From Agarivorans sp. TSD2052 (GTDB taxonomy: Bacteria; Pseudomonadota; Gammaproteobacteria; Enterobacterales; Celerinatantimonadaceae): DNA of 64,000 bases. The stretch covers positions 2,345,501-2,409,500 of the forward strand of contig NZ_CP096670.1 of assembly GCF_023238625.1 (NCBI RefSeq), given 5' to 3'. Positions 8,633 through 16,682 of this stretch are shown piece by piece. How positions within the stretch are numbered: the first letter of the stretch is position 1; every line of letters begins with the position of its first letter. Below the pieces are notes generated by a model. The model did no database searches, was not told the origin of the DNA, and saw nothing but the letters and a program-made list of their open reading frames with translations. The position numbers and the translations under genes were made by a program.

Positions 8633-10189
8633 ATGACTACCCATATAAACAAAGTCGCAGTGGGTGTTGGCTTAATCGCTACTTCCGGCGCTGCAGTTGC
8701 TGCCTCTCAACCCAACATTCTTGCGATCTGGGGTGACGACATTGGCATCTTTAACATCAGCGCTTACAACAACGGTATGATGGGTTACCAGACACCCAAT
8801 ATTGACCGTATTGCCAGCGAAGGCGCTCTGTTTACTGACCATTATGGACAACAGTCCTGTACGGCGGGACGCGCCGCATTTCTCACCGGGCAAGAACCGT
8901 TTCGTACCGGTTTGTTAACTATTGGAATGCCCGGCTCAGACCACGGCATTCCTGACTGGGCTCCGACAATTGCCGACTTGTTAAAAGAACGTGGCTACAT
9001 GACCGCCCAGTTTGGTAAAAACCACATGGGCGACCAAGATAAACATCTCCCAACAAATCATGGATTTGATGAATTCTTCGGTAACCTTTATCACCTTAAT
9101 GCCGAAGAAGAGCCTGAAACTTACTACTACCCTAAAGACCCGGAGTTTCGCAAAAACTTCGGCCCTCGGGGCGTCATTAAGTCAAGTGCCGACGGCAAAA
9201 TTGAAGACACCGGTCCAATGACGCGTAAGCGTATGGAAACAGCCGATGAAGAATTTTTAGAGGAGTCTTTAGCCTTTATGGAAAAGGCCGTTAAAGCGGA
9301 TAAGCCGTTTTTCATCTGGCATAACACCACGCGTATGCATGTATGGACACGCCTGCAAGAGAAATATCAAGGCGCTTCAGGCATATCGATTTATGCCGAC
9401 GGTATGCTAGAACACGATGATCATGTGGGTATTCTTCTAGACAAACTCGATGATCTAGGAATTGCCGACAATACCATCGTTATTTACTCAACGGACAATG
9501 GCGCTGAAACAGCGTCATGGCCTGATGGCGGCGCAAGCTTTTTTCATGGTGAAAAAGGCACAACCTACGAAGGTGGGATGCGCGTTCCACAACTAGTACG
9601 CTGGCCTGGAGTTATCGAGCCCGGCGCAAAAATTAACGATATCATGTCACATAAAGACTGGATCCCAACGCTATTAGCCGCTGCTGGCGATGACCAAGTG
9701 GTAGAAAAGCTTAAATCTGAAGACGGTGCTCGTTACAACGGAAAGAATTGGCGAGTTCACTTAGATGGCTACAACTTTATGCCTTACTTTGAAGGAAAAA
9801 CCGAAAAAGGCCCGCGCGACTCTATGTTTTATTTCTCTGCAAACGCTGAGTTAAATGCAGTTCGTTGGAATGATTTTAAGGTTTCATTCGCAGTAATGGA
9901 AGGTAACATCTCCGATGCTGTTCGTTTTCAACCTAACTGGCCACAAATTGTTCACCTCCGTGCTGACCCATTTGAAAAAGCCCCTCACGAGTCAGGTTTA
10001 TACCTACGTTGGATGGCTGATAATATGTGGTTATTCGTACCTGTAGCTAGTCAGGTGCAACCATTTATTGAATCAGTTAATCAATACCCCTTCCAACCAA
10101 GCCAAGTACTAAACCTAGGCAATTTTAATCAAGATGTATTCATGCTGAAAAATAAACTGAATCAACTTGAGCAAGCCGCTGGCAAGTAA
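8633..10189 (+). CDS. Exported arylsulfatase (type I, Cys-type)
   Basis: 518 residues with a signal peptide (cleavage likely after AVA, residues 21-23). The sulfatase family features are clear: metal-binding DD at 35-36, the formylglycine motif C-T-A-G-R with Cys76, GKNHMG, TDNGAE, and HGEKGTTYEGGMRVP. The C/S-x-P/A-x-R motif needs Cys oxidation by an FGE or anSME. The protein would hydrolyse sulfate esters in the periplasm; the substrate is not deducible. It is transcribed divergently from moxR and followed by a terminator hairpin and a HAD phosphatase gene. The ATG follows GGAG within a good distance. Confidence 0.9.
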   Translation: MTTHINKVAVGVGLIATSGAAVAASQPNILAIWGDDIGIFNISAYNNGMMGYQTPNIDRIASEGALFTDHYGQQSCTAGRAAFLTGQEPFRTGLLTIGMPGSDHGIPDWAPTIADLLKERGYMTAQFGKNHMGDQDKHLPTNHGFDEFFGNLYHLNAEEEPETYYYPKDPEFRKNFGPRGVIKSSADGKIEDTGPMTRKRMETADEEFLEESLAFMEKAVKADKPFFIWHNTTRMHVWTRLQEKYQGASGISIYADGMLEHDDHVGILLDKLDDLGIADNTIVIYSTDNGAETASWPDGGASFFHGEKGTTYEGGMRVPQLVRWPGVIEPGAKINDIMSHKDWIPTLLAAAGDDQVVEKLKSEDGARYNGKNWRVHLDGYNFMPYFEGKTEKGPRDSMFYFSANAELNAVRWNDFKVSFAVMEGNISDAVRFQPNWPQIVHLRADPFEKAPHESGLYLRWMADNMWLFVPVASQVQPFIESVNQYPFQPSQVLNLGNFNQDVFMLKNKLNQLEQAAGK

Positions 10190-10245: not shown

Positions 10246-10267
10246 ATAAGCTCTTTTGGGTGAATAT

Positions 10268-11263
10268 ATGTTAAGTAGAATCAAATTAATTATTATTTCT
10301 ATAAGTATTTTGGGCGCTTTCAAGGCCTATGCCGACAATGACCCTTTGCCTTCTTGGAATAACGGTGACACTAAACAAAGTATTATTTCTTTCGTTAACC
10401 AAGTGACCGATAAAAATTCACCTCATTACGTGCCAGTGGCCGAGCGCATAGTAACCCTAGATAACGACGGTACCCTATGGAGTGAACAGCCAATGTATTT
10501 CCAGTTGTATTTCGCCTTAGACAGGCTACAAAAACTGGCGATAAAGGACCCTAAACTGGCCGAACAAGAACCCTATGCAGCAGCGCTTAAAGGAGACATC
10601 AAGCCATTACTAGCAGCAGGAGATGAAGCACTACTATATCTAGCCTCACACACGTTTACCGGAATGACTGTCAGCGAATACCACCAAATGGTCGAAACGT
10701 GGGTAAGTACGGCTAAACACCCAACAAAGGATAAGCTATTTACCGAGCTGGTTTATCAACCCATGATTGAGATGATCAACTATCTAAAAGCCAACGACTT
10801 TAAACCCTATATTGTTTCTGGTGGAGGCATAGAGTTTGTTCGTCCATGGGCCGAAAAAGTTTACGGTATACCTCCAGAGCAAGTCATTGGCAGCAGCTTT
10901 AAAACCGAGTATCAAATGCATGACGGAAAGGCGGTACTGATAAAAAAAGCCGAGTTACAGTTTGTTAACGACAAAAATATGAAGCCGGTTGCGATTAACC
11001 ACCACATTGGTCGTAAGCCAATTATGGCATTTGGTAACTCTGACGGTGATCTTGCTATGTTACATTGGACAACTTCAGATTCTACGCCAAGTATGAGTGT
11101 GTATATTCATCATACTGATGCCACACGTGAATGGGCTTATGACCGCGATTCACCTATTGGCCAACTAGATCAAGGCCTCATTGATGCTAAGCAAAACAGT
11201 TGGCCTGTAGTAGATATGAAAAATGATTGGAAGGTTGTTTACCCTTACGAGTTAAAGCAATAA
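10268..11263 (+). CDS. Exported HAD-superfamily phosphatase
   Basis: 331 residues from the ATG at 10268, chosen over an in-frame TTG at 10256 because GGGTGA precedes it and a signal peptide begins there (MLSRIKLIIISISILGAFKAYA). HAD motifs are intact: motif I LDNDGTLW (nucleophile and acid Asp), motif II SGGG, a later Lys, and motif IV FGNSDGDLAM. These predict a periplasmic phosphomonoesterase. It follows the sulfatase across a terminator, so the two may work in the same nutrient-scavenging context (inference). The substrate is unknown. Confidence 0.82.
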   Translation: MLSRIKLIIISISILGAFKAYADNDPLPSWNNGDTKQSIISFVNQVTDKNSPHYVPVAERIVTLDNDGTLWSEQPMYFQLYFALDRLQKLAIKDPKLAEQEPYAAALKGDIKPLLAAGDEALLYLASHTFTGMTVSEYHQMVETWVSTAKHPTKDKLFTELVYQPMIEMINYLKANDFKPYIVSGGGIEFVRPWAEKVYGIPPEQVIGSSFKTEYQMHDGKAVLIKKAELQFVNDKNMKPVAINHHIGRKPIMAFGNSDGDLAMLHWTTSDSTPSMSVYIHHTDATREWAYDRDSPIGQLDQGLIDAKQNSWPVVDMKNDWKVVYPYELKQ

Positions 11264-11287
11264 TTTTTAACTAGCCGTTTTCACGCA

Positions 11288-11320
11288 GAAGGAAGCTATA
11301 AAGCAACCTTCTTTTACTTT
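11288..11320 (+). terminator. Terminator hairpin after the HAD phosphatase gene
   Basis: GAAGG/CCTTC arms with an inner AGCT-ATAA-AGC pairing and two A-A mismatches, followed by TTTTACTTTTT. It is placed 25 bp after the stop. Confidence 0.65.
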
Positions 11321-11414
11321 TTGGCGATGATCACACTTAAGAAATGGTTAAAGAACATTACCAGGTATCTATTGACAAAAAATACTCACTAATTGATCAA
11401 GCGCACCGCCAGTT

Positions 11415-11489
11415 ATAAAACCCCACCATGTAAACAGAGGCTGGTTAAACAGGCTAGGCAAACATTAGAAGAATAGGATAAAACCCCAC
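11415..11489. repeat. 12-bp direct repeat upstream of the vemP-like gene
   Basis: ATAAAACCCCAC occurs at 11415-11426 and again at 11478-11489, 63 bp start to start, about six helical turns. It lies in the 311-bp non-coding region between the HAD gene and the vemP-like frame, where the promoter of the vemP-secD-secF-chaA transcript must be. It may be a regulator site; nothing further is visible. Confidence 0.35.
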
Positions 11490-11574
11490 TTATTAGTCCG
11501 AAAAACAGATTTTACCATTGCTTGAAAAGCCAGTTTTTAGTAAAATATTGGCCTTCTATTTGATAGGTGTTTCG

Positions 11575-12051
11575 TTGAAATATTTTTGGCGTAAGTTTTT
11601 CTTAGTTAGCCTTATAACACTATGCTCTCACATTGTGACAGCTCAAGTGGCTACATCTGCGCCTTCGGATAACTCGGTTCTCTCTACCTTTCAAATTGAA
11701 GCTTTAGATTCATTGGTCAGTCAAAAGTCCTTTAATAGTATTGAACATGAGAATGGCTACTTAGACAGTGAAGACGAACATTCACAATTAAAAGCTTTTT
11801 CGTCCTATTTTCTAAATTCCTTAAGGCGTGTTGAGTCTAGTGACCATTGTGCTGCCTATGGCGTAAGTCCCGACTACTTTTTATTATTCGCTCTATTGCC
11901 CCCCCTTCTATTTGAGCTTGCTCAACTTGCTAGTCCGATTCAAAAAACCCAGTTTCATTGGACTGCTAACGTTAGTACTACACGCTCAAGAATTTCCGGA
12001 TGGAAAGAAGCAAACACGCTTTATACCCACAATAATTCACACCTAAGTTAA
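11575..12051 (+). CDS. vemP: VemP-like secretion monitor (translation-arrest leader for secDF)
   Basis: 158 codons from a TTG at 11575 preceded by AGGT; an in-frame TTG at 11518 would lengthen it by 19. The start choice is inference. It has a Sec signal peptide (MKYFWRKFFLVSLITLCSHIVTAQ pattern: basic, hydrophobic, A-Q-V-A), a hydrophobic middle (FLLFALLPPLLFEL, about 102-114) and a C-terminal segment R139-I-S-G-W143-K-E-x-N-x-x-Y150. In Vibrio, VemP (159 residues as I recall) is encoded before secD2F2 and stalls ribosomes near its C terminus through a motif around Trp143, until Sec/SecDF pulls it out. Length, signal, Trp position and location before secDF all agree. The match is from memory, not alignment. 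Confidence 0.75.
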   Translation: MKYFWRKFFLVSLITLCSHIVTAQVATSAPSDNSVLSTFQIEALDSLVSQKSFNSIEHENGYLDSEDEHSQLKAFSSYFLNSLRRVESSDHCAAYGVSPDYFLLFALLPPLLFELAQLASPIQKTQFHWTANVSTTRSRISGWKEANTLYTHNNSHLS

Positions 12052-12174
12052 CTCTCTTCGCCCAATCAATTTGGGCAATAAAAATAACGCAAATACATCT
12101 ATAAGCTGTTGTTTATGTTGAATGACATTTTTGACAGAGCTTGCGTACTTTATTTTTTCTAAAAGAGAATTACC
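12047..12174 (+). promoter_or_regulatory. RNA pairing between the vemP stop region and the secD ribosome-binding site
   Basis: The arm at 12047-12058 (GTTAACTCTCTT, containing the vemP stop TAA) can pair with 12163-12174 (AAGAGAATTACC, containing the secD Shine-Dalgarno AGAG) at ten of twelve positions. A ribosome stalled at the last vemP codons would cover the first arm and free the secD site. This is the control logic known for Vibrio vemP-secD2. Folding was judged by eye; the loop is about 104 nt. Confidence 0.55.
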
Positions 12175-12176
12175 CC

Positions 12177-13961
12177 GTGAAAAAAACCAGTTCCCCAATA
12201 AATCACTATGCTAAATGGAAATATGCTGTGCTTATATTTAGCGTAGTGGTTATGACTTTGAGTGCTCTACCCTCTTGGTATGGTGACAATGCAGCACTGC
12301 ATATTACTAGCAGAAATCAAACAACCGACGTGGCCAACCTTGCGCGCTATTTCAATGATAGCGATATTGATTTTCTAGACATCTATCAGCAAGGCGATAG
12401 AACGGTAGTGGTATTGGACCAACCCGCTCAACAGGCGAAGGCTCAACAACTATTGGCTAATAAGCTAGGAGACGATATTACTGTGGCGCTGGCCATTGAG
12501 CCGGCGGCACCAAATTGGCTGTTGAATGCTGGTTTCTCACCGATATCGTTGGGTCTAGATTTAAGAGGTGGCGTACAGTTTCTTCTAGAGGTTGATATGA
12601 AGCCTGTCTATCAAGCTCACGCTCAAATGCTTATTGACGAAATTAGGCAAGAAATCCCGCGAAGTCGTGGTCGTCAGCAAGATGAAATCGCACGAATCAC
12701 CCTGCCATCTAGCGGTGATGTTGCACATGTTCGCCAACACATTCGTGAGAACTTTCCCCATTGGCAGTTAAGCGCTTCTGGTAAAACCGTCACCCTACAA
12801 TTAGCGGAAGAAGAGAAAGCCACCCTCAGAAATTTAACGGTTCAGCAGAACCTACAGATTATGCGTAGCCGAATCGAAGAGCTCGGTATTACTGAAGCTA
12901 TCGTGCAACGCCAAGGCGAAAATCGAATTCGCATTGAACTGCCAGGAGTACAAGATCCATCGGCGGCCAAAGATGTGATAGGAGCCACCGCCTCGCTGGC
13001 TTTCCACGCGATGCCTAGAAATGTGGGCCAGCAAACCCAACAATTGCTCGACAGTGATGGCAACCGTTTGTCAATTGCTCGAAGAGCCGTACTCGGTGGA
13101 GAACATATCATTGATGCGCGAGCCGGTATGGGTGAAATGGGGGGTTCCGAAGTTAATATATCGCTTGATTCTGTAGGCGGCAGAATGATGGCTAACTTTT
13201 CTCGTGCAAATATCGGCGAGCCGATGGCCACGGTATACAGCGAATACAGCAGAGACGCAAAGGGGAATAGTCAAAAAGTCAGTACCGTTATCAGTGTGGC
13301 CACTATTCAATCTCAGTTAGGTAATCGTTTTAGAATTACTGGCGCTGGCAGCATGCAAGATGCTCAAGAACTGGCTCTGTTACTAAGAGCTGGGTCATTA
13401 ACTGCACCGGTCACTATTATTGAAGAAAGAACCATAGGCCCATCACTCGGCGCTGAAAATGTAAAAAATGGCTTTGGAGCCTTAGCCCTAGGTTTAGGCC
13501 TAACCCTCAGCTTTATTGCGCTGTGGTACAGGCGCTTAGGTTGGGTGGCCAATGCTGCTTTGATAACCAATATGGTATGTCTATTTGGCTTGATAGCCTT
13601 ATTACCCGGTGCCGTTCTTACCCTACCCGGTATTGCTGGACTGGTGCTAACTGTTGGCATGGCAGTAGATACTAATGTGCTAATTTTTGAACGCATAAAA
13701 GACAAAATGAAAGAAGGTCGAACTTTTGCGCAATCTATTGATCGAGGATTTCAAAGTGCTTTTGGTTCGATTTTCGATGCCAATTTAACCACCATGATTG
13801 TTGCCGTTGCCCTTTACTCAATCGGCAATGGCCCCATACAAGGCTTCGCTCTAACACTGGGTTTAGGCTTGCTAACCAGCATGTTTACTGGGATTTTTGC
13901 TTCTCGAGCACTGATCAATTTGGTTTGGGGGCGTGATCAACGCCGTGACCTAAGGTTATAG
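12177..13961 (+). CDS. secD: SecD, protein-export membrane subunit (second-copy type, secD2)
   Basis: 594 residues from the GTG at 12177 (MKKTSSPINHYAKWKY); an upstream in-frame TTG at 12141 is unlikely. There is an N-terminal helix, a large periplasmic P1 region (GLDLRGGVQFLLEVD; LQIMRSRIEELGITEAIVQRQGENRIRIELPGVQD) and a C-terminal RND-type membrane domain (GSLTAPVTIIEERTIGPSLG; VGMAVDTNVLIFERIKD, with the conserved Asp; FDANLTTMI). SecD with SecF uses the ion gradient to pull exported chains. No yajC, tgt or queA lies beside it, so this is not the standard housekeeping cluster, in keeping with a vemP-controlled paralogue. Confidence 0.93.
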   Translation: MKKTSSPINHYAKWKYAVLIFSVVVMTLSALPSWYGDNAALHITSRNQTTDVANLARYFNDSDIDFLDIYQQGDRTVVVLDQPAQQAKAQQLLANKLGDDITVALAIEPAAPNWLLNAGFSPISLGLDLRGGVQFLLEVDMKPVYQAHAQMLIDEIRQEIPRSRGRQQDEIARITLPSSGDVAHVRQHIRENFPHWQLSASGKTVTLQLAEEEKATLRNLTVQQNLQIMRSRIEELGITEAIVQRQGENRIRIELPGVQDPSAAKDVIGATASLAFHAMPRNVGQQTQQLLDSDGNRLSIARRAVLGGEHIIDARAGMGEMGGSEVNISLDSVGGRMMANFSRANIGEPMATVYSEYSRDAKGNSQKVSTVISVATIQSQLGNRFRITGAGSMQDAQELALLLRAGSLTAPVTIIEERTIGPSLGAENVKNGFGALALGLGLTLSFIALWYRRLGWVANAALITNMVCLFGLIALLPGAVLTLPGIAGLVLTVGMAVDTNVLIFERIKDKMKEGRTFAQSIDRGFQSAFGSIFDANLTTMIVAVALYSIGNGPIQGFALTLGLGLLTSMFTGIFASRALINLVWGRDQRRDLRL

Positions 13962-13964
13962 ACA

Positions 13965-14867
13965 ATGACTATTTCTAATAATTTGCTTACTCGTATCCGC
14001 TTGCTGATGTCTGGTATGTCAGTCCTTCTATTCATCTTTGCGGTAACGCTAATTAGTGTAAAAAGCTTTAACTGGGGGCTTGATTTTACTGGCGGTGTGG
14101 TCGCTGAAGTCAGGCTAGATAAATCACTGAAGCTTAACGAGCTTAAGTCGCACCTTGATCGTTCTCTAGCTCAAGATGTGCAGGTGATTAGCTCAGCTGA
14201 ATCTGGCAGATGGCTGGTTCGTTACAACCAACCCGACGCAATTAGCGAGCCACTCGCCAGCACCTTGGGGTCGATCAGTGAGTCGGTAGAAGTGCTAAAT
14301 AGTAGCGTTGTTGGCCCACAAGTTGGCCAAGATATGGTCGAACAAGGAAGCTTAGCCATGTTTGCTTGTTTTATACTCACCATGATCTATTTGAGCTTTA
14401 GATTTGAATGGCGCCTCGCTTTAGGCGCGTTGTCGGCATTGATCTATGACGTAGTGATCGTTATAGGCCTGTTTTCCTTAACAGGCATGGAGTTTAACCT
14501 GACGATTTTAGCGGCAGTATTAGCCGTGTTAGGTTATTCGCTCAATGATTCTATCATCATTGCTGATCGGGCCCGCGAGCTGTTAAGAGCCAATCCGAAA
14601 GGCGATACAAATATCATTATTAACGACACATTAAGAGCAACCGTGTCGAGAACTTTAGTGACCTCTGGCACAACACTAGCCACAGTATCAAGTTTGTGGC
14701 TACTAGGAGGCCCTGCGCTAGAAGGTTTTGCCATCGCATTATGTCTAGGTATTGCCAGTGGGACTTGGTCTTCAGTGTCTTTGGGGGTGACCTTGCCACA
14801 AATGATTGGTTTAAAACCAGAGCACTATCAAGTTAAAGATATTGATACTAAAGAGGCCTACCTATGA
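13965..14867 (+). CDS. secF: SecF, protein-export membrane subunit (secF2)
   Basis: 300 residues. First helix near 13-30, then FNWGLDFTGGVVAEVRLD, periplasmic P4 domain, and five membrane helices with GYSLNDSIIIADRARE (conserved Asp) and NDTLRATVSRTLVTSGTT. It partners SecD, three bases downstream of its stop. Its own stop overlaps the chaA start (ATGA), so secD-secF-chaA is one transcript. The likely driving ion is Na+ or H+; in Vibrio the second SecDF differs in ion use from the first, which cannot be read here. Confidence 0.93.
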   Translation: MTISNNLLTRIRLLMSGMSVLLFIFAVTLISVKSFNWGLDFTGGVVAEVRLDKSLKLNELKSHLDRSLAQDVQVISSAESGRWLVRYNQPDAISEPLASTLGSISESVEVLNSSVVGPQVGQDMVEQGSLAMFACFILTMIYLSFRFEWRLALGALSALIYDVVIVIGLFSLTGMEFNLTILAAVLAVLGYSLNDSIIIADRARELLRANPKGDTNIIINDTLRATVSRTLVTSGTTLATVSSLWLLGGPALEGFAIALCLGIASGTWSSVSLGVTLPQMIGLKPEHYQVKDIDTKEAYL

Positions 14868-15955
14868 GCCGCTTCCTCAAACAAGAATATGTTTTAGTTG
14901 TCGGTATTCTGACTGTTTTACTGTTTAAGTTAATGGGTGACGAGTTACTGCACAGTAGTATCACATCAGTGCCTAGTGTTGTGCTAATTGCGGTGCTGTT
15001 TGTGGTGGTGATGGCGTCAATTTTTGCGGTAGTGAGACACTCTGATGCTTTAGCAATAAAGCTTGGTGACCCCTATGGCACGCTAATACTGACCCTTTCA
15101 GTGGTGATACTTGAAGTGGTGATGATCTCGTCAGTCATGTTGACTGGAGACGCCAACCCAGTATTGGCCAGAGATACCATGTTTGCGGTTATTATGACGG
15201 TACTAAATGGCCTAGTGGGCTTAACCCTGCTGTTAGGCGGGCTTAAGTATCATACCCAAAAATACAATATCGAAGGATTAAAGTCTTACTTGGTCGCTAT
15301 CATCCCACTGGCGATTTTGTGTTTGATTTTACCCAACTTCACTCGAGTGGATGACGCGGGCTCTATGTCGGCGGTAATGACCGCTACCCTCGTGTTAGTG
15401 TCAATTTCACTGTATGCCGTGTTTTTGTTCATTCAAACTAAAAGCCATACCCACTTTTTTATCGATGAAGATCATCAGGATGAAGAGGAGTTCCATGGCC
15501 CAATTGGCAGCAATTTGTATCACGCACTACTGCTGATTGGATACCTCATCGTCGTTATATTTTTAGCGAAGAGTTTTGCTATCCCCATCGATAGCACCAT
15601 TAACTTGTTAGGTGCTCCACAAGCACTTGGTGGATTTGTCGTTGCGGTACTGGTCTTAGCACCTGAAGCCGTTGGCGCTGCGAAGGCGGCGCTAAACAAT
15701 CAATTACAGCGGGCAATGAATCTGTTCTTTGGCTCGGTTTTAGCCACCATCGCCTTGACAGTGCCCGCAGTATTACTCCTCTCTGGGCTAATTAACCAGC
15801 CTATACACTTAGGCCTCAGGCCCTCCGAAATGGTGCTGTTATGTGCAACATTAATGGTGGCGAGTTTAAGCTTTAGCAGTGGTAAAACGAACTCCTTAAA
15901 CGGGGCGACCCACTTAGTTCTGTTTTTTGCCTACTTAATATTGATGTTTGAATAA
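14864..15955 (+). CDS. chaA: ChaA-type Ca2+(Na+)/H+ antiporter
   Basis: 363 residues with about eleven membrane segments. CaCA-family repeats show the paired acidic motifs (GTLILTLSVVILEVVMIS in the first half, VLAPEAVGAAKAALNNQLQRAMN in the second), with an acidic cytoplasmic loop (DEDHQDEEEFHG) between. The family exchanges Ca2+, Na+ or K+ for protons at the inner membrane. The start overlaps the secF stop by 4 bp. Co-transcription with a SecDF pair and a VemP-like sensor suggests a link between ion homeostasis and ion-driven export; that link is inference. Confidence 0.88.
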   Translation: MSRFLKQEYVLVVGILTVLLFKLMGDELLHSSITSVPSVVLIAVLFVVVMASIFAVVRHSDALAIKLGDPYGTLILTLSVVILEVVMISSVMLTGDANPVLARDTMFAVIMTVLNGLVGLTLLLGGLKYHTQKYNIEGLKSYLVAIIPLAILCLILPNFTRVDDAGSMSAVMTATLVLVSISLYAVFLFIQTKSHTHFFIDEDHQDEEEFHGPIGSNLYHALLLIGYLIVVIFLAKSFAIPIDSTINLLGAPQALGGFVVAVLVLAPEAVGAAKAALNNQLQRAMNLFFGSVLATIALTVPAVLLLSGLINQPIHLGLRPSEMVLLCATLMVASLSFSSGKTNSLNGATHLVLFFAYLILMFE

Positions 15956-16028: not shown

Positions 16029-16682
16029 ATGTTAGATATTTTGTATGCTATATGGCACCACGATTATGAAACACTGTTACACATAAACTCACTAAATTGG
16101 CTATTACTCGTGTTGGCGCTGGTGCTATTTTTGGAATCCAGCTTCGTTTTCTTGCCTTTACCAGGCGACAGCCTAGTATTGTTTGTTGGCGGGTTAATTG
16201 GCATGGGGATCTTGGATTTTTACCCCGCTATTGCAGCGCTTTGTCTCTCATCGTCTTTAGGGTGTATTTGTGCCTACTCGCAAGGTCGACTATTACAGAA
16301 AACCTCGCTACTTTTATTCGTTGAGCGCGTTCTACCTGAAAAGGCCCTGCCTAAAACAAAATACCTATTGAGTAAATACGGCTTCCTGTCTCTGTTCGTA
16401 TCGCGGTTTATCCCTTTCGTAAGAGTACTTACCCCCATGTTAATGGGTATTTCTAAACTTGGCTTCTGGAAAACCGTGTTAGCCAGTACCGCGAGTTCAT
16501 TGATTTGGAGTATATTGCTGCTAATGTTGGGCAAATGGTTAATGCTTAATCCAGTACTATCAGATAATCAACAACTGGTCACTCAAGCGATTGTTATGAT
16601 CAGTTTGGCTTTGATGATTATAGGTACCGTAGGAGGATTGTTTCGTCTGTTAGCCAATAAACATCGTAGCCATGTTAATTAA
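16029..16682 (+). CDS. DedA-family inner-membrane protein
   Basis: 217 residues. The DedA/SNARE-associated domain is recognisable: E-x-x-x-x-x-P-x-P-x-x-x-x (FLESSFVFLPLPGDSLVLFVGG), G..LG...Y..G, and SRFIPFVRVLTPMLMGISKLG with the conserved Arg residues, followed by two C-terminal helices. DedA proteins flip or transport lipid carriers such as undecaprenyl phosphate, needed for membrane potential and envelope stress resistance. GGGTGA lies before the ATG. It follows chaA after a hairpin and is closed by a bidirectional terminator. Confidence 0.88.
   Translation: MLDILYAIWHHDYETLLHINSLNWLLLVLALVLFLESSFVFLPLPGDSLVLFVGGLIGMGILDFYPAIAALCLSSSLGCICAYSQGRLLQKTSLLLFVERVLPEKALPKTKYLLSKYGFLSLFVSRFIPFVRVLTPMLMGISKLGFWKTVLASTASSLIWSILLLMLGKWLMLNPVLSDNQQLVTQAIVMISLALMIIGTVGGLFRLLANKHRSHVN

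Follow-up and report, generated by a model that had tools for sequence, protein, structure and literature searches.

The question raised by this locus is whether the open reading frame in front of a non-standard secD-secF pair of Agarivorans sp. TSD2052 is a force-sensing arrest leader of the VemP type, and which genes leaders of this type stand before. The window is the whole stretch of DNA that was analysed (64,000 nucleotides); unless stated otherwise, coordinates refer to it, and the leader and its operon lie on the + strand. The frame from 11575 to 12051 is open over 158 codons in translation, from a TTG start to a TAA stop, and was assigned as a VemP-type leader from a profile match to the VemP nascent chain (PDB 5nwy_s) and a 37-row alignment. 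Other in-frame TTG codons occur at 11518 and between 11518 and 11575. The TTG at 11575 was favoured because it is preceded by a Shine-Dalgarno-like AGGTG and because a TTG is found at about the corresponding place in the leaders of three same-genus relatives. Given this start, the frame and positions in the preliminary description, namely a 158-codon frame carrying R139-I-S-G-W-K-E-x-N-x-x-Y150 with Trp at 143, were reproduced; the agreement in motif numbering with VemP follows from the same choice. Rfam gave no match in 11200 to 12400 up to an E value of 1, and a promoter scan gave one weak site (11522 to 11549), fewer than in shuffled sequences.

Residues 1 to 24 (11575 to 11646) look, by inspection, like a Sec signal peptide, with a K/R-rich start followed by FFLVSLITLC. 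A hydrophobic segment with an Arg about three residues after it was read as Y78-F-L-N-S-L-R84-R85 (YFL at codons 78 to 80, N-S-L, then R84-R85; 11806 to 11829) and is the putative counterpart of the VemP SHS (L78ALF) and Arg-85 (PMC11470409, PMC7793623). The R85 column was at least 90% conserved in a 10-row alignment. The arrest motif, assigned from sequence and alignment, spans R139-I-S-G-W143-K144-E-A-N147-T-L-Y150 (11989 to 12024), and the C-terminus as a whole reads S138-R139-I-S-G-W143-K144-E-A-N147-T-L-Y150-THNNSHLS. VemP is reported to stall with Q156 in the P site (PMC5449182), and by numbering analogy with its Q156/F157 the predicted P-site and A-site codons are 156 (His, CAC) and 157 (Leu), at 12040 to 12045. 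The last proline is P121. No counterpart was found in the leader for the (hydrophilic)xP element (Q65/P67 in VemP), which is reported to be conserved among Vibrio VemPs and lies outside the class motif; no proline occurs between P30 and P99. An R-A/G-P-P or RAGP motif, the membership feature of the RAPP/RQH and SecM leaders, was absent near the C-terminus.

Searched alone, the leader gave no match above cut-off in Pfam or NCBIfam, and phmmer matched no PDB chain, VemP included; a profile of relatives was needed since none of these single-sequence searches was significant. Matches were obtained by phmmer in 10 of 60 genomes, the host among them, and all 10 stood directly before secD and carried R-[IL]-x-x-W-K-[ED]-x-N-x-x-Y. 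In the PDB, the profile built from these 10 leaders had one matching chain with an E value of 10 or less, that of the VemP nascent chain (5nwy_s); the match was weak (E 0.039), and the alignment ran through RISGWKETNAMY. Failure of the last 30 residues to align with VemP, which the preliminary description had named as refuting, was thus not observed, and its proposal of a VemP-like arrest peptide is borne out as far as sequence goes by this sole structural match and by the motif kept in the relatives. Over residues 138 to 156 of the Vibrio alginolyticus protein, 11 of 19 were identical, N154 and S155 included.

Applied across the order, this profile had matches in 82 of 394 genomes (18 of 115 sampled genera), and among named genomes 79 loci were obtained, from Vibrio, Photobacterium, Shewanella, Psychromonas, Moritella, Pseudoalteromonas, Colwellia, Algicola and Kangiellaceae. 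No variation was seen at R139, W143, K144 and N147 in the alignment of relatives, and very little at P99, W129 and Y150; invariance here refers to its 37 rows, from which L074 to L076 and L079 (two with WR for WK) and the changed-motif members met later were excluded. The latter are L179 (WQ), L245 (RK) and L256 (without the Tyr); in L257 the leader is split over two frames. The C-terminus was the best-conserved part of the family. Values of dN/dS, calculated over at most the last 150 codons, were 0.09 to 0.44 in the 15 of 16 member pairs with finite dS, several of these pairs being distant with dS above 1. Membership of the leader in the VemP family, a group of force-sensing arrest leaders, is well supported by these comparisons. 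The host belongs to a different family from that containing Vibrio, so the claim of a case outside the well-known Vibrio examples holds for the placement of the host; it does not hold for a lone case, as many genera carry the family.

The placement before a non-standard secD-secF pair was likewise upheld. The secD gene (GTG start, 12177 to 13961; NCBIfam PRK12933 secD and the SecD tree) begins 125 nt after the leader stop and is followed by secF (13965 to 14867; Pfam and NCBIfam). The start of a putative chaA-like cation/proton exchanger gene (14864 to 15955; best NCBIfam match ChaA, below cut-off) overlaps the secF stop as ATGA, and a gene for a DedA (VTT domain, Pfam) membrane protein lies downstream at 16029 to 16682. 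Three secDF pairs are present in the host genome: the housekeeping tgt-yajC-secDF found elsewhere, the leader-linked pair and a third pair (L020, C1:3254500-3259500), which had no motif-bearing frame in the 600 nt before its secD. The third SecD groups with SecD of Psychromonas and Pseudoalteromonas relatives that have leaders. Upstream of the leader, the window holds a sulfatase-like frame (8633 to 10189, by eye) and a HAD-phosphatase frame (10256 to 11263, Pfam HAD).

A predicted RNA switch connects leader and secD. Directly after the leader stop lies a predicted anti-Shine-Dalgarno, CTCTCTT (12052 to 12058), which pairs in the minimum-energy fold of the window with the secD Shine-Dalgarno AAAGAGA (12162 to 12168). 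Beside it a small hairpin, GCCCAA-TCAAT-TTGGGC (12060 to 12076), is predicted, and similar inverted repeats were read in the same-genus loci L010 and L012. A ribosome with codon 156 in its P site would, by footprint estimate, reach about 12056, inside the anti-Shine-Dalgarno. When the footprint of the stalled ribosome was blocked in the fold model, the accessibility of the window's secD Shine-Dalgarno went up from 0.21 to 0.51; this gain was matched in 3 of 40 shuffles and is not significant alone. The fold test was applied to 55 loci hand-chosen to thin near copies, 49 before secD and 6 before chaA or dedA; L097 had no start candidate, leaving 48 and 6. A gain of at least 0.1 was observed in 26 of the 48 secD loci and a smaller gain or a loss in 22, and the gain was equalled by 2 or fewer of 40 shuffles in 19 of 48, versus about 3.5 expected. 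The pairing itself, on which the assignment of the anti-Shine-Dalgarno also draws, was compared with swapped partners. In 23 of 48 loci, the best anti-Shine-Dalgarno of the leader-to-secD stretch was positioned between −12 and +10 relative to the leader stop, versus a mean of 13.8 and a maximum of 21 when Shine-Dalgarno sequences were swapped between loci (0 of 200 trials reached 23). In a thinned set (n = 36), 20 cognate cases compared with a swapped mean of 11.6 and maximum of 19. This evidence is strong but not independent, because the loci are related. Since the cognate pairings exceed all 200 swapped trials, a ribosome stalled near codon 156 would be expected to free secD.

The leader might alternatively act mainly through transcription, by way of Rho or an attenuator, or through translational coupling, rather than by opening the Shine-Dalgarno. 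The 22 secD loci with a fold gain below 0.1 are in favour of this, as are the yqjA-linked leaders described below, which lack a signal for Shine-Dalgarno opening (none of the 17 of 18 loci modelled had a gain equalled by 2 or fewer of 40 shuffles). Against it, no intrinsic terminator was found between leader and secD in the window, and the cognate complementarity is located at the leader stop. Action through transcription or coupling was accordingly judged unlikely.

The segment after Y150, which matters in V. alginolyticus VemP, is not the same in all lineages. In VemP, an alanine scan of residues 138 to 156 reportedly left only S141 and S155 dispensable, and R139, W143, K144 and Y150 are described as contacting A752, uL22 R92, U747 and C2610 (PMC5449182). 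Residues 151 to 156 are THNNSH in the window versus VALNSQ in VemP, with only N154 and S155 in agreement, and the segment varies within the genus (THNNSH, SHIHTR, SQGHIR, SQKHSR). Among lineages the residues following Y150 include SHFRELLS, SHRQYPAVITSV, IPQQYSHA, RFSQTRSA, KANTTYHS and VALNSQF, and VALNSQ-like residues near the peptidyl transferase centre (PTC) are absent in most other members too. The suggestion that THNNSHLS is a natural variant of the arrest end is therefore correct in that it differs from VemP, but the divergence after Y150 is general across the family and not peculiar to this leader. It follows from this general divergence that the exact stall codon is not transferable from Vibrio.

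These differences also allow for a true VemP homologue in which arrest has been lost or weakened, the tunnel motif being kept while the PTC-side segment no longer silences the ribosome, so that the leader would be merely a coupled upstream gene. Besides the unlike and, even within the genus, variable positions 151 to 156, this is favoured by a related secD (65% identical) in the same-family genome G007 that has no leader, from which the leader is deduced to be dispensable in some lineages. It is opposed by the motif being invariant or nearly so over 37 relatives, by the distance from the Tyr to the stop, which is 8 residues in 50 of the 79 named loci (range 5 to 14), by Shine-Dalgarno pairing tuned locus by locus, and by the small number of degenerate or broken members (L179, L245, L256, L257). 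On balance, loss of arrest appears quite improbable.

The genomic context was surveyed for secD, chaA, DedA and S41 protease genes, the four kinds asked for. Of 87 match places in the order-wide scan, 83 were examined, weak ones in G058, G141, G256 and G304 being left out. A motif-bearing frame was present in 80, and the next gene within 700 nt was secD in 70 (L257 included), a DedA gene in 4, an S41 protease gene in 4 and chaA in 1, with the contig ending in 1. The remaining three were a degenerate L245, a degenerate L256 (before secD) and a chance match, L255. In the overlapping set of 79 named loci, the leader stood before secD in 68, chaA in 6 and a DedA gene in 3, with 2 cut by the contig; chaA or DedA thus followed the leader without secDF in 9 of 79. 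An ordinary secreted protein of unrelated function that resembles VemP by chance, as the lack of a Pfam or NCBIfam match over cut-off and of a PDB chain by phmmer might suggest, is most improbable in view of the best-conserved C-terminus, of VemP as the sole PDB profile match, and of a secD, chaA, DedA or S41 gene within 700 nt of all 79 motif-bearing frames with room downstream.

The preferred reading is that the leader is a VemP-type monitoring substrate predicted to regulate secD by stalling, to which we assign a probability of roughly 0.85. Homology, motif, gene order and cognate complementarity are the parts demonstrated here. By analogy with VemP, the signal sequence would take the nascent chain to SecYEG. 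Under strong export, pulling would free the ribosome, the leader would be completed, and the secD Shine-Dalgarno would stay in its predicted pairing with CTCTCTT. Under weak export, R139, W143, K144, N147 and Y150 would hold the chain in the exit tunnel with a stall near codon 156, and the stalled footprint would cover the first anti-Shine-Dalgarno bases and open the ribosome-binding site of secD. SecD and SecF would then be made, and chaA would probably follow by coupling. Stalling, export-coupled release and induction are taken over in this scheme from VemP. The points against it are the weak profile match (E 0.039), the failure of single-sequence searches, residues 151 to 156 mostly unlike VemP, the missing (hydrophilic)xP element, the 22 of 48 loci with a gain below 0.1 or a loss, and the leaderless secD of G007.

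Among known systems, the closest is VemP of V. alginolyticus (vemP-secD2-secF2). The two agree in length (158 versus about 159 residues), in the R139/W143/K144/N147/Y150 motif and its numbering, in N154 and S155, in the hydrophobic stretch followed by Arg near residue 85, in gene order, and in predicted anti-Shine-Dalgarno control of secD. They differ in that the host lies outside the family of Vibrio, the window SecD falls in another clade than the partners of VALN-type leaders, residues 151 to 153 and 156 to 157 are not shared, the (hydrophilic)xP element is absent, and the window operon runs on into chaA and dedA. The VemP class of Fujiwara et al. 2024 (PMC10987492), described as 339 sequences with an RxxxWKxxNxxY-like motif, shares both motif and position before secDF. 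uDF_RQH_Enterobacterales, ApdP and SecM (RAPP/RAGP type) are also exported leaders before a sec gene, and stem-loop control of the Shine-Dalgarno has been described for uDF_RQH_Enterobacterales and SecM; all three use another arrest sequence, and the window frame has no RAPP, RGPP or RAGP. The leader in this window is well supported as belonging to an already known class, found here in a new location and with a C-terminal end that is a variant.

In a tree of 37 SecD sequences, the six partners of VALN-type leaders formed one group (100/99), and the window SecD fell in a second (100/100) with 17 others from Vibrio, Shewanella and same-genus genomes. In Vibrio hangzhouensis both types are present, with one leader apiece and a secD behind each, and Vibrio sp. 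10N.286.49.B1 gave three leader matches, one of which was examined. Both strains are reported to hold two vemP copies (PMC10987492). Because these two-copy strains each give more than one match, one of the window's type, that type very likely falls inside the class of 339 sequences as described there. Occurrence within the genus is patchy: the leader and a window-type secD (71 to 72% identical) are present together in G000, G001, G003 and G004 and both absent in G002, G005 and G006, a joint presence and absence that counts in favour of the preferred reading. The window SecD is only as close as this to those of three genus mates, versus 92 to 96% identity for the housekeeping SecD and about 95% for the third SecD within the genus. 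Nine rows, comprising genus mates and six Vibrio sequences, grouped without the window SecD (100/99), and the leader operon lies elsewhere on the chromosome relative to the housekeeping secDF than in the genus mates. The operon may therefore not reflect simple inheritance within the genus and may have been acquired more than once (the window versus L010 to L012 and L234 to L236).

The more novel and surprising result is that the same leader occurs before non-Sec genes. A profile of four yqjA-linked leaders matched 18 of 246 Enterobacteriaceae-like genomes (12 of 154 genera), this label for the yqjA hosts being derived from synteny. In all 18 leader-bearing genomes (L172 to L189), the leader stood before yqjA, the product of which is 76 to 85% identical to E. 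coli YqjA (70% in one), mostly with exuR upstream and mzrA downstream. Conservation in these leaders is highest at the signal sequence and at R-L-G-G-W-K-E-S-N-x-L-Y-R-G-x-L-T-Y-H, and the part between the two varies. Profile comparison of the secDF-linked with the yqjA-linked leaders gave an E value of 2.5e-9, and with the S41 set 3e-9; these values denote consistency rather than independent proof, since the second sets were found with the first. The S41 (IRBP-like) peptidase loci L074, L075, L076 and L079 occur in two families, and the partner was confirmed by Pfam in 2 of the 4 genomes, the other two matching the first by tblastn. A more divergent leader-like frame precedes an S41-like gene in L193. 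E. coli yqiM (27 codons, before yqjA) was considered as a remnant leader and rejected, as it has no motif; a motif was likewise lacking in all three forward frames between exuR and yqjA in one E. coli strain. L245 (G342, Vibrio family) has W changed to R in the motif, with no secD, chaA, DedA or S41 gene in the fetched stretch. Both this leader, with its degenerate motif, and L257 (G333, also Vibrio family), with its split frames, are possibly decaying.

The chaA-linked named loci are L094 and L095 (Photobacterium) and L109, L114, L115 and L128 (Vibrio). In all six a small frame ends on the chaA start, through ATGA in five and TAATG in one. In Photobacterium profundum, the start of this relay frame resembles the SecD N-terminus, being 57% identical to that of the window over 23 residues (five N-termini compared), and the TAGAGAG that precedes it is complementary to a CTCTCTA immediately following the leader stop. 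The simplest reading of this sequence is that secDF was deleted and the leader-controlled start was kept to drive chaA. The SecD N-terminal remnant was found in L094 and L095 only. Opening of the relay start was supported by the fold model in L109, with a gain equalled by 0 of 40 shuffles, and in L128, there for just one of several starts (1 of 40); no support was obtained in L095 (0.14 to 0.15) or the remaining chaA loci. With the chaA or dedA start as the target, gains in the six chaA/dedA loci were at most 0.04. Three Photobacterium loci (L102, L103, L110) have the leader, a small frame of about 80 to 85 residues with one hydrophobic segment, and then dedA; the L102 frame faintly resembles SecD TM1. 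Pfam searches with the small frames before Photobacterium dedA and with the relay peptides gave nothing usable. In L114 (Vibrio inusitatus) and L115 (V. comitans), a GTACGTCA-type tandem repeat of differing copy number lies between leader stop and chaA. E. coli MzrA (L171:2643-3023) matched the SecD-TM1 Pfam model (E 2.6e-18) and gave no BLASTP alignment with the window SecD N-terminus; the Pfam match suggests that MzrA derives from a SecD N-terminus.

Leaders before yqjA, chaA, DedA and S41 genes fall outside the scope of PMC7897499 and PMC10987492, because both were restricted to sec and yidC genes; the search in PMC10987492 is described as covering regions upstream of secA, secDF and yidC. 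No VemP-type leader before a non-Sec gene was found among the literature matches listed, which does not show that none has been published. CutF of Rhodobacter capsulatus (PMC9973294), likened here by description only, is an exported nascent leader that controls a non-Sec gene through a stem-loop shielding the ribosome-binding site; unlike the present leaders, it is described as sensing copper and having a proline-rich C-terminus. We hypothesized that the VemP module serves as a portable sensor of export and has been attached to yqjA (with mzrA) in Enterobacteriaceae, to the gene of a secreted S41 protease in two further families, and to chaA or dedA in Vibrio and Photobacterium. In some lineages, deletion of secDF would have left the leader-controlled secD start in place as a mini-ORF, which relays the signal to chaA through a stop-start overlap. 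When export fails, ion exchange, lipid-carrier recycling or periplasmic proteolysis would then be turned on via one force-sensing nascent chain, whose tunnel grip is fixed and whose PTC-side segment is freely exchanged. We give this hypothesis slightly better than even odds.

A physiological connection between these targets can be drawn from PMC9876793, in which loss of secD1, secF1 or ppiD is reported to suppress a defect in C55-P translocase, the effect of secD1 or secF1 loss being ascribed to reduced sodium flux. There, DedA proteins are named as candidate C55-P translocases, and SecD2 and SecF2 rise on loss of SecDF1. Joint induction of SecDF2, ChaA and DedA by a leader that sensed weak export would be in keeping with sodium or alkaline stress. 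With such a spread, the family offers a large set of natural mutants of an arrest structure that is among the best studied. If the fixed R/W/K/N/Y grip proves compatible with several different PTC-proximal segments, a direct test becomes possible of the proposal that ribosome silencing is due to a specific C-terminal helix. If the reading of the leaders before non-Sec genes is true, force-sensing export monitors would control a wider range of envelope physiology.
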